Shown here: piece by piece, positions 1 to 49,947 of the stretch | Layout: each line of letters begins with the position of its first letter | How positions within the stretch are numbered: the first letter of the stretch is position 1 | Origin: Plumapathes pennacea | Taxonomy: Eukaryota; Cnidaria; Anthozoa; Antipatharia; Myriopathidae | DNA: 64,000 nt | Assembly (NCBI GenBank): GCA_964036295.1 | Contig: OZ038463.1 | Span: 31,821,295-31,885,294, forward strand | Direction of reading: 5' to 3' | Notes under the pieces: generated by a model | Databases searched by the model: none | Seen by the model: only the letters and a program-made list of their open reading frames with translations | What the model was told of the DNA's origin: nothing | Position numbers and translations under genes: made by a program

Positions 1-77
1 AGGAGGTCCATGGTGCTTCACGACAAATCGGAATGTCACGTGGGAATACTGCGCTGTGGAAAAATGTCCAAAACGAG
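1..77 (+). CDS. Paralog 1 kringle exon, 3' part
   Basis: The reading frame gives GGPWCFTTN...WEYCAVEKC, the conserved end of a kringle domain with its last cysteines. The exon ends at 77 before GTAGGG, the same donor site and phase 1 as in the two intact paralogs. The start is outside the window. Confidence 0.8.
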
Positions 78-198
78 GTAGGGGAGTATTATAGGACGCA
101 TGCTGGCAAACAGCTTTAAATTTATTATTGGAAGTCGACATAAAACTGTATAACAAAGGATAAAATAAAGAAGGGCATTCTGGTAACGTCATTTAACA

Positions 199-47500: not shown

Positions 47501-49947
47501 GAGTGGTACTACTTACAACTGCCGTGTCAGGAGCGTTAATAATTTTGGAAATGGAACTTGGAGTGACTTCGTAAATGTGTCAACCATTGAACTGAATAGT
47601 AAGTATTTACCGGCCTTTATTGAGTCAAGTGAAGTATTTACCTTTGGAGAGAATGGCGACTTGCATCAAAGGGGACCACTTATTATATTAATAAGTTATT
47701 GTATGATTGCTGTTATTCTTGTTTCTTCTGCTACAGTTTTCTATTGGTAAAATTAAGTTTTACAACAATTTCCGCAAAACCGCGAGAAAAATTAAATCAT
47801 TATACATGTAACTTGCGATAGATCTACAATCAGTGACAAAAGTTCTTGGGACACTTTCAAAAACTGATGTATCTCAGACACAAGTCATTGACTAAGCGTA
47901 CTGAAAGGCGCGAAACCAGTTTTCTCCCCCCTTCTCTCTGTACAATGTTGCGTGTGCTTGGGAAAACAATTTCAGGCCACTTCAACATTGAACGGGGGGA
48001 GGGGGATTGTCTTTCAACTGAAACAGTAGAGAATTTACTGAAACTGTGCGAGTGTCCCAAGAATGGATGGTTATCGAAATTAAAATGGGTTCTTTTTCAC
48101 GAGTCAAAATTGTTTTAGAAGTTAAAATGTAACTCTAAATCGAGGCATTGAAAGCGAAAGTAATCATAATAATTAATTTTCCATTTGAAAATAAGAAAGA
48201 CCTGTCGAAACGTGAGTTGAATATATCTTGGGCCATAGATGCAATGAACACTACTATACTCTTTCATAATAAGCCCCTCAGTTTAGGCGAGGGCGTAAAC
48301 TTAATCCATGTGCAATTTCATATATTCAATTTGTCTGCAGAAGAAATGATCCCCACTGACAAAGGAAATACTCCACCTCTCTAAAACGGACACTTGTTAG
48401 TAAACGCCCCTGCCATTGATTCATGAGTCATTTCCTATAACTGAACTCTATATAGACGTACACCTCTTTAAAACGGACACTCTTTTTTCACAGCTGGAAT
48501 AATAGCGGGATGTGTTGCAGCTGCTATAATTCTTGCAGGCGTTGCTTTATTAGCATACTATCGTCATCGGAGAAATGGAACAGAAATACGTGAGTGACAC
48601 CATTAACTCTCTGTAGTATTATCTGACGTCATTTCCGTTGGCCAGCAATCATCGCATTCAATTGAGTTAGAATTTTACAATGTACATACACAGCATTATA
48701 TTTCCAGTTATGCACAACTTGTCTTAGAAAACTATTCAACTAACGTTTGCTTGAGTATGACATGAGTCTGCAATTGTATTTTTCCTTGGTATATTCTATG
48801 ACGATTCAAAACATATCTTATGGTGTTTGGAAGGCCCTTGGAAATAGTCGAACATGCCTTCACTGATTTATCTGGTCCAGTGGTTATTGATGAGATCGTG
48901 TCGCAACGCTTCTAGTAGCATAATTTGATCCAAATCTGCAGGATTTAAGGGTCTCATATACATGTTTCCATGACAACATATTGTACAACTGTACATGACG
49001 TTTCTGCACAGCGATTTCCTGAATATTTTCGGATAACTCCTACCACATTGTAAACAAGGATTTCTTTGCAAACATTCATCGGTTTGACCTGAAAATCACT
49101 GCGGAGAGTTGACATGCATAGTTCTGTGCAATAATTATGGCTTTTGTATTTGATCTATTCGTTGTAGTTAAGCCCTGTCCATATTTCCATGGTGACCATA
49201 ACTACTTTGCGCTTGATGAAACAATCCATAATTGATGTTTCTGCACAGCGATTTCCAGGTGAAATTGATGAACATTTGATCTAACATTCACTGTGCAAGG
49301 CTCAGATATGATAGTTCTGTACAATAATTATGGCTTTTACATTATTAATATAATTAAATACAATTTATTTCATGTTTACAGAGCTTCGACGCGCAGTGGC
49401 TCCTTATGCAGTCACTCACATAAACGAAATTCTTGAACCCTTCTATGAAGAAATCAATGAAAGGGCGACTCATCGATTCAAGTCCAGATACGTGAACTTG
49501 AAAATCGACGGTACCCTTAACCTCCCTCCGCATCTTCAAGACGCATTTATTGACTTCGAACAGCTTTACGAGAACCTGCGCTATAAGCGGTTAGAGGGCA
49601 TCCAACCAAGGCGAAGGTCTTTTAGCGGCGTCGTTGATGAACATGGCTGTCCCGTCTATGACGTCTTAACACATCCATTCTGTTTCAACCGCAACCAAAA
49701 AGCCAAAGTGACAAAATTTTGTCCAACAATCCACAAAAAACACCCACAAAACCCAAGCCGGCGCGAAACCTCAAGAAGGCGATCGGCATCTGTTGATCTT
49801 GGCCAAGTGAAAGCGTTTGCTGAAGTTTTAGAGCGATTTGGAAATAAAGCTGGGGCTATTGGAGAACGTTGTGGCTATGAAAACACGGGAAACAACGGCA
49901 TCCTCAACCTCCCTCCCCGTCTTCAAGACACATTGCCAAGCCACTAA
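41443..49947 (+). CDS. Paralog 3: intact FZ-kringle-FN3 single-pass receptor without kinase
   Basis: Exons 41443-41506, 44173-44218, 44666-45216, 45984-46010, 46820-47071, 47299-47598, 48494-48589 and 49382-49947 add to 1902 bases, 634 codons, with the same phases as paralog 2 and no stop. Domain order is the same: signal peptide, [11 protein letters not shown] linker, kringle, FN3, TM, tail. The stalk exon is broken (48341-48375), so FN3 should be joined directly to TM. The gene is 8.5 kb against 21 kb for paralog 2 because most insertions are absent. Expected at the cell surface; ligand and partner kinase are unknown. Exon 1 and exon 2 are inferred from their match to paralog 2. Confidence 0.77.
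41570..41998 (-). mobile_element. 3' end of a truncated CR1/L2-like LINE
   Basis: The minus strand codes [16 protein letters not shown], then [16 protein letters not shown], the C-terminal zinc-knuckle-like region seen after the RT in such LINEs, to a TAA. The element ends in (TTGTC)n, five or so units at 41578-41600. It lies in intron 1 of paralog 3 and is 5'-truncated, as typical for target-primed insertions. Confidence 0.7.
43982..44015. repeat. (CA)n microsatellite
   Basis: About 17 CA units, next to AAGAACATTAAATTTCGAG that is shared with 15147. Confidence 0.95.
44102..44172. repeat. (ATT)n microsatellite ending in the acceptor AG of exon 2
   Basis: About 23 ATT units run to TTATTAG, whose AG (44171-44172) must serve as the splice acceptor of exon 2. 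Paralog 2 has a normal CT-rich tract here. Confidence 0.9.
44173..44218 (+). CDS. Paralog 3 exon 2: short N-terminal exon
   Basis: 46 bases, (A)[14 protein letters not shown], donor GTAAGA, phase 1 to 2 as in paralog 2. Only four bases differ. Confidence 0.65.
44375..44468. repeat. (AT)n microsatellite
   Basis: About 47 AT units in the intron between exons 2 and 3. Paralog 2 has only CAATATGTATATGC there. Confidence 0.95.
44666..45216 (+). CDS. Paralog 3 exon 3: Frizzled-type cysteine-rich domain
   Basis: Acceptor TTATGTCAG, donor [54 protein letters not shown] and LDCTKMP give the FZ cysteine pattern. An extra loop, [17 protein letters not shown], is absent in paralog 2. The second half is nearly identical to paralog 2, while the region before TKRC has diverged more. 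Confidence 0.85.
45285..45560 (-). repeat. CCCTATTTCAGACC repeat element, paralog 3 copy
   Basis: Same position after the FZ exon and same orientation as 16985-17280, with GTGTGCCGCACGGTTCTCC at its start. Confidence 0.75.
45984..46010 (+). CDS. Paralog 3 exon 4: 27-nt linker microexon
   Basis: Between CTTATAACAG and GTAACA; codes DQLDKLTST with silent differences from paralog 2. Confidence 0.75.
46820..47071 (+). CDS. Paralog 3 exon 5: kringle domain
   Basis: 84 codons in phase 1-1: [58 protein letters not shown]. Six cysteines and all kringle signatures are present. Confidence 0.9.
47299..47598 (+). CDS. Paralog 3 exon 6: fibronectin type III domain
   Basis: 100 codons in phase 1-1: [66 protein letters not shown] complete FN3 fold including the tyrosine-corner SGTTYNCRV. 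Confidence 0.9.
47821..48062. mobile_element. MITE with CTACAATCAGTGACAAAAG end, second copy
   Basis: Starts CTACAATCAGTGACAAAAGT and matches 3149-3402 in reverse, including AACGGGGGGAGGGGGATTG and TTGCGTGTGCTTGGGAAAAC. The far end stops at GAGTGTCCCAAGAATGG, so its last bases are lost. Paralog 2 lacks it. Confidence 0.65.
48341..48375 (+). pseudogene. Broken stalk exon of paralog 3
   Basis: The acceptor TTGTCTGCAG and the first 35 bases ([12 protein letters not shown]) are kept, but the 3' half and donor are replaced by the CCTCTCTAAAACGGACAC minisatellite unit. Read on, the frame ends at a TAA after PPL. It can be spliced out only, or serve as a terminal exon for a form without TM. Confidence 0.65.
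48494..48589 (+). CDS. Paralog 3 TM exon
   Basis: Phase 1-1. [20 protein letters not shown], then [10 protein letters not shown]: one membrane helix with a basic cytoplasmic border. Two codons shorter than in paralog 2. Confidence 0.85.
49382..49947 (+). CDS. Paralog 3 last exon: cytoplasmic tail with tyrosine docking motifs
   Basis: 188 codons, stop TAA. YEEI (49444-49455), YVNL (49489-49500) and YENL (49567-49578) are kept, as are [17 protein letters not shown] and the two DG-x-LNLPP-x-LQD repeats. It differs from paralog 2 by only a handful of residues. Confidence 0.85.

Follow-up and report, generated by a model that had tools for sequence, protein, structure and literature searches.

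The 64,000-nucleotide window analyzed here, from the antipatharian Plumapathes pennacea (C2:31821295-31885294; assembly of 290 Mb, 24 contigs), contains two open seven-exon genes, gene 1 (10495-31355) and gene 2 (41443-49947). Their conceptual proteins of 611 and 624 amino acids carry, in order, a signal peptide, a linker, an FZ domain, a kringle, an FN3 domain, a transmembrane (TM) helix, and a tail. Our comparisons support the assignment of these genes to a kinase-less FZ-kringle-FN3 family that lies outside ROR and MuSK and has been duplicated locally. From sequence, we somewhat favor the interpretation that the family comprises hexacorallian single-pass receptors in which an FZ-kringle head and a kinase-less tail serve recognition signaling via a borrowed tyrosine kinase, with both the ligand and the kinase being putative. 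A ROR/MuSK-type head would then occur without its kinase across a whole receptor family. This unnamed, multi-gene family of coral surface receptors has a testable signaling tail and bears on variable recognition receptors in corals, whether for partners, microbes, or neighbors. An earlier note on this DNA knew of no described family with this domain order; a search of titles and abstract openings, mostly in the open literature (most subscription literature lay outside it), found no description of FZ-kringle-FN3 receptors without a kinase.

Structure of the two genes

The introns of both genes have GT-AG ends and are in phase. Pfam matches to FZ, kringle, and fn3 lie above cut-off in the exons of both genes (gene 2 was also searched whole), and each protein has 10 cysteines in FZ and 6 in the kringle. 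These models bear out the two complete genes and the domain content proposed in the earlier note. The exons of the family in the window are as follows.

10495..10558, +, gene 1 exon 1, start codon and signal peptide (model; copies in array)
16033..16078, +, gene 1 exon 2, linker (linker match in 6/7 plus-strand copies)
16424..16926, +, gene 1 exon 3, FZ domain, 10 Cys (Pfam Fz 5e-10)
22925..23182, +, gene 1 exon 4, kringle, 6 Cys (Pfam Kringle 6.5e-23)
23410..23706, +, gene 1 exon 5, FN3 (Pfam fn3 2.6e-11)
29573..29674, +, gene 1 exon 6, TM helix and stop-transfer
30790..31355, +, gene 1 exon 7, cytoplasmic tyrosine tail and stop
41443..41506, +, gene 2 exon 1, start codon and signal peptide
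44173..44218, +, gene 2 exon 2, linker
44666..45216, +, gene 2 exon 3, FZ domain, 10 Cys
46820..47071, +, gene 2 exon 4, kringle, 6 Cys (Pfam Kringle 9.2e-22)
47299..47598, +, gene 2 exon 5, FN3 (Pfam fn3 4.9e-16)
48494..48589, +, gene 2 exon 6, TM helix and stop-transfer
49382..49947, +, gene 2 exon 7, tyrosine tail and stop (YAVT, YEEI, YVNL, YENL, YKRL, YDVL)
1..77, +, copy D, 3' end of broken kringle exon (26 amino acids identical to gene 2)
2588..3063, +, copy D, tail exon, six tyrosines kept, C-terminus frameshifted relative to gene 2
33446..33943, -, lone tail exon, minus-strand subfamily

The TM helix had been placed within the FN3 exon. It is instead encoded by an exon of its own in both genes; read-through of the FN3 exon is ruled out, as frames differ between copies and the FN3 exon is closed by a GTAAGT donor. 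Elsewhere in the array of related copies, each of the seven exon types occurs again in unchanged order, which takes the gene structure beyond chance. In its title and abstract, PMC3927609 cautions that gene prediction can yield domain-order errors, a caution that the repeated exon order answers in part.

When five kinase pieces were used in tblastn searches of the window, no kinase exon was found. The single match (52894-53040; E 0.006) lies within the reverse-transcriptase open reading frame (ORF) of a long interspersed nuclear element (LINE) and is taken as chance. Gene 2 gave no match to an Ig domain up to E 0.05.

Two smaller elements of the earlier annotation stood in part. The decayed gene at 1-3063 is indeed decayed but is not a whole gene; it is the 3' part of broken copy D, which starts upstream of the window (signal peptide at C2:31815718, FZ at C2:31818906). 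FN3 and TM exons were looked for in copy D, whose kringle is broken, and none was found; its tail exon retains the acceptor and a frame that is open through all six tyrosines. For the reverse-strand relative at 34271-33446, the tail exon (33943-33446) is backed, whereas the remainder (33944-34271) is unsupported. On the minus strand of 33441-41440, tblastn of eight proteins had no match better than E 2.5 beyond the tail, and a scan for a TM exon found none. Compared with gene 2, this tail exon has nonsynonymous (dN) and synonymous (dS) divergences of 0.42 and 1.36, which does not show that the exon is in use.

Local duplication in the genome

The expansion by local duplication that the earlier note proposed is evident in an array of about 300 kb that contains 11 FZ-kringle copies. 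Twelve of the 20 kringle matches in the genome (11 copies, one split) fall within C2:31.76-32.05 Mb, and the array holds 11 of the 15 FZ matches, seven on the plus strand and four on the minus strand. Tail matches number 24, from which 20 were extracted as loci; FN3 matches number at least 143 (150 of 356 candidates scored), and the best six are plus-strand copies. Four of the seven plus-strand copies are open, namely genes 1 and 2 together with copies E and A, which use the same exons. Copy B has no start of the usual kind and breaks off within the tail; in copy C the end of the TM exon is ambiguous and the frame shifts downstream of the six tyrosines. Fuller minus-strand sets (n = 4), each with three FN3 domains, lie at C2:31938340-31945476 and at three further places on C2.

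Kringle matches outside the array include C1, C4:8.6 Mb, and two on C5. Both C5 kringles adjoin kinase matches, and one of these loci (L002) has ROR as its best match and groups with ROR in the tree, giving the genome at least one ROR-type kinase gene. No kinase match lies in the array among the matches listed (140 of 1165 genome candidates scored). Tail-only exons are also found at C2:31.1-31.2 Mb and on C7, where three very similar ones (C7:18275503, 18323970, 18372388) are spaced about 48 kb apart; genome searches placed neither an FZ nor a kringle on C7.

Relatives in other species

A search with the gene 2 protein returned 32 proteins at E<=1e-3, and a search with an alignment of eight extended this to 54. 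The coral members among them, which are without a name or misnamed in databases, belong to Oculina, Montipora (two species), Acropora (two), Porites lobata, and Desmophyllum. The family, described earlier as separate and lineage-specific, is separate from ROR and MuSK but is not confined to a single species, as it has members in five other coral genera. Relatives with whole models have FZ, kringle, FN3, and TM in the same order as the window genes, with one FN3 in the window subfamily and mostly two to four elsewhere. Some models are partial: P0038 and P0044 (Desmophyllum) are neighboring pieces, P0039 is incomplete, and Pfam gives no kringle in P0033 and P0036 and no Fz up to E 0.05 in P0002. 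The tail is present in Oculina, Montipora, Acropora, Desmophyllum, and two further sources; both Porites proteins are without it, P0037 having another C-terminus and the second being partial. Oculina members lie on one contig with close locus numbers (ACROYT_G013559, 560, 562, 563), which indicates that tandem growth recurs. A search with the tail of P0001 recovered 12 proteins among 695 candidates, all of this coral family, although it was word-limited and missed the TSP1 relative described below. P0043 and P0050, annotated as sidekick or phosphatase, are anthozoan proteins that combine an FN3 array with an ion-channel domain.

The tree of FZ plus kringle (30 rows, two of the 32 extracted being dropped) placed the 12 coral kinase-less rows, including the two tail-less Porites rows, in one clade (98/96). 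It split the cnidarian set from ROR/MuSK (98/96), as expected from the earlier proposal of a family apart from these receptors, and joined corals with anemones at 81/78. In a second tree of 36 rows, with nine from this genome added and three others dropped, support was 94/98 for the coral clade and 100/99 for the position of the family outside the ROR clade. The nine array and C4 rows of this genome formed one clade (99/95) beside all sampled stony corals (100/98). MuSK and the C5 gene form long branches whose placement is unsure, as does a TIR gene described below.

Like ROR1/ROR2, Nrk, and CAM-1, the window genes have FZ followed by kringle and a single TM, and the predicted FZ structure has the cysteine-rich domain of ROR2 as its best match. 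(Searches of the complete P0004 model by Foldseek and VIA filled up with FN3 domains and were uninformative on FZ.) Unlike those receptors, they have FN3 after the kringle, no kinase exon that we could find, and an FZ-kringle sequence outside the ROR clade; the Ig domain that gene 2 does not match is a vertebrate ROR feature according to PMC11219042. MuSK shares FZ and, in fish, amphibians, and birds, the kringle (PMC3927609). The window family differs in having no Ig match and no kinase found, and it branches outside the MuSK rows, themselves long branches.

A conserved tyrosine tail

The tail has the features of a docking region suggested by the earlier note. Among 17 tails (P0037 excluded), the six tyrosines are kept in 17/17, 15/15, 16/16, 16/16, 17/17, and 14/14 non-gap rows. 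All six tyrosine columns of the alignment are invariant, as against 10 of 85 others (Fisher 1.2e-5), and 19 of 85 others in five representative rows (p=2.7e-4); the rows are related by descent, so that these p values are indicative. In the 20 tails of this genome the first two tyrosines are kept in 15/15 each and the other four in 20/20 each, five tails having been extracted from downstream of the first two sites. In one relative modeled, the tail is predicted to be disordered. The tail exons of genes 1 and 2 (30790-31355, 49382-49947) contain an internal repeat within the tail.

At two Y-x-N sites both Y and N are invariant among non-gap rows. PMC11203457 gives pYXNX as the motif bound by the SH2 domains of Drk and GRB2, and the conserved sites are putative docking sites for Grb2/Drk.

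A second pattern concerns the immunoreceptor tyrosine-based activation motif (ITAM), whose loose rule is YxxL/I x6-12 YxxL/I; Src prefers YEEI. The YEEI/YVNL pair fits this rule in all 15 genome tails that cover both sites, with x11 on C2 and x6 on C4. Of 15 rows from elsewhere, three have no pair and 12 have a recognizable one, none of which fits: these show x11-18 with YETV, YEIM, YEIV, YEPC, YDMP, and others, or YETI/YETL/YDTI with x13-14.

Related heads joined to other outputs

The origin of the tail can be approached through three relatives. Oculina P0015 (FZ-kringle-TSP1-TM-tail) resembles the window genes in having no kinase match, a related tail block ending in VYDSL, and YEN motifs; it differs in having TSP1 in place of FN3, and a shorter relative, P0014, is named MuSK-like. 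Its tail aligned with that of the family with an hhalign score of 38.4 (probability 65%), compared with a maximum of 28.5 in 200 shuffles. The anemone proteins P0040 (Nematostella, named 'Mer') and P0041 (Actinostola, hypothetical; FZ cut off, SEA match just below cut-off) are FZ-kringle-FN3-SEA-FN3-TM-kinase proteins. They share the order of FZ, kringle, and first FN3 and the same side of the tree but have SEA and an FGFR-like tyrosine kinase. In a PDB search (best 60 of 2407) the P0040 kinase was nearest FGFRs, which ranked below plasminogen (kringle) and an EGFR entry. Against the tail, four pieces from the cytoplasmic part of the anemone kinase protein scored 10-16, and we rejected homology between the tail and either parts of the anemone kinase or the C-termini of ROR/MuSK (seven pieces, scores 9.9-15.7).

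The third relative lies in this genome at C10:514404-520599 (L001, L049), where exons for FZ, kringle, two FN3, TM, and a TIR domain follow in succession. Read by eye, phase-1 introns bounded by GT and AG connect them (the start is not in the model), and Pfam gives TIR_2 at 2.7e-29 with Fz, Kringle, and fn3 above cut-off. This is the only one of 38 genome TIR matches close to a kringle. The gene shares head order and phase-1 introns with the window genes but has TIR instead of the tyrosine tail; the second tree placed it with the anemone kinases at 62/55, an unsupported branch. Heads related to those of the window genes appear to be joined to an FGFR-like kinase in anemones and to a TIR domain in this genome.

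The earlier note held that the tail had replaced the kinase, which these comparisons do not support. Since the TSP1 relative shares the tail block and ROR/MuSK lie outside, kinase loss is no likelier than a kinase-less, tailed ancestor of the coral genes. The anemone kinase, nearest FGFRs and with pieces unlike the tail, may be an acquisition of the anemones. Support for the branching order among the cnidarian rows is weak, however (81/78, and unsupported in the second tree), so that either direction may hold. Two papers disagree on the age of ROR: FZ domains predate Ror/Musk kinase motifs and the Ror and Musk families are placed in bilaterians in PMC8662651, whereas ROR is conserved from sponges to humans in PMC11219042. 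The ROR-type C5 locus bears on this disagreement.

Selection and models of function

Between genes 1 and 2, dN and dS are 0.145 and 0.163 for FZ, 0.048 and 0.071 for kringle, 0.041 and 0.046 for FN3, 0.036 and 0.020 for TM (32 codons), and 0.016 and 0.057 for the tail. Nonsynonymous to synonymous differences are 53:15 in FZ and 7:7 in the tail (p=0.047). Across array copies, the ratio of mean pairwise dN to mean pairwise dS is 1.12 for FZ (21 pairs, 12 with dN>dS), 0.36 for kringle, 0.67 for FN3, and 0.42 for the tail (15 pairs each). We fitted our own codon likelihood model to seven FZ copies and six each of kringle, FN3, and tail; its FZ log-likelihood agrees with IQ-TREE (-1729.74), and p values of the six omega tests are uncorrected. 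FZ had the highest omega of the four domains (1.36), a helix-loop segment within it reached 2.57 (p=0.0066), and kringle fell below 1 (0.52; p=0.038). In within-species pairs, FZ was less alike than kringle in 7/8 and than FN3 in 7/8.

In the model that we favor, the FZ domain would meet a changing or varied ligand, with relaxed or diversifying selection. Once the ligand is bound, the tail would be phosphorylated by a tyrosine kinase from outside the receptor, of Src or Syk type or carried by a partner protein. The two Y-x-N sites would recruit a Grb2/Drk-type adaptor and the other tyrosines other SH2 proteins, so that the protein would work as a recognition receptor that borrows a kinase and not as a ROR kinase. 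According to PMC11219042, ROR2 without its intracellular region is still able to signal.

Several observations weigh against this model. Its kinase and adaptor steps rest on short motifs. Between genes 1 and 2 alone, the FN3 ratio (0.88) is close to that of FZ (0.89) and the TM ratio is higher (1.84). Omega for the whole FZ does not differ from 1 (p=0.098). The helix-loop segment, although bounded by model helices, was picked after viewing the alignment, and FZ outside it gives 1.06 (p=0.79). Values for the tail (0.63; p=0.053) and FN3 (0.66; p=0.25) are not clearly below or above 1. The copies included B, C, and D, which are not intact, and gene conversion can distort omega. Kringle is better kept in 5/5 between-species pairs as well.

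Three other explanations were considered. The proteins could be ordinary, ROR-like Wnt co-receptors, which bind Wnt by FZ-kringle and act as a scaffold for a Frizzled complex, while the array has grown by neutral duplication. The head order and the ROR2-like fold suit this account, which we nonetheless consider unlikely: the highest omega of the four domains is odd for an FZ that binds a conserved ligand, the family lies outside ROR/MuSK, and a ROR-type kinase gene is already present on C5. A special form of the borrowed-kinase model, in which YEEI-x11-YVNL acts as an ITAM that recruits the tandem SH2 domains of Syk, is a little more doubtful still; the complete fit among genome tails speaks for it, and the absence of any fit among rows from elsewhere speaks against it. 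That the genes are decoys or dead-end receptors in a graveyard of duplicates seems improbable. Broken copies D, B, and C and the lone tail exons would be expected of such a graveyard, but the four plus-strand copies that are open throughout and the invariance of the tail tyrosines across four named genera would not.

Beyond the borrowed-kinase model, it is tempting to speculate, tentatively, that hexacorals possess a variable recognition system built on the FZ-kringle-FN3 head. Such heads would diversify in tandem arrays under selection and, by phase-1 exon exchange, be joined to a docking tail, an FGFR-like kinase, or TIR, serving immune, symbiont, or self recognition and not Wnt signaling.

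Other features of the window

An intron of gene 1 contains a Mitochondrial carrier fragment (28382-28777; Pfam 1.1e-10), perhaps a retrocopy, and the intron preceding its TM exon contains a tandem array of units of about 71 bases (26616-27475). A LINE-like ORF with endonuclease and reverse transcriptase occupies 51630-54689 on the minus strand. Two overlapping frames at 60777-62688, with a weak reverse-transcriptase match below cut-off, are flanked by inverted 315-base arms that are 96% identical (60426-60736, 63689-64000).

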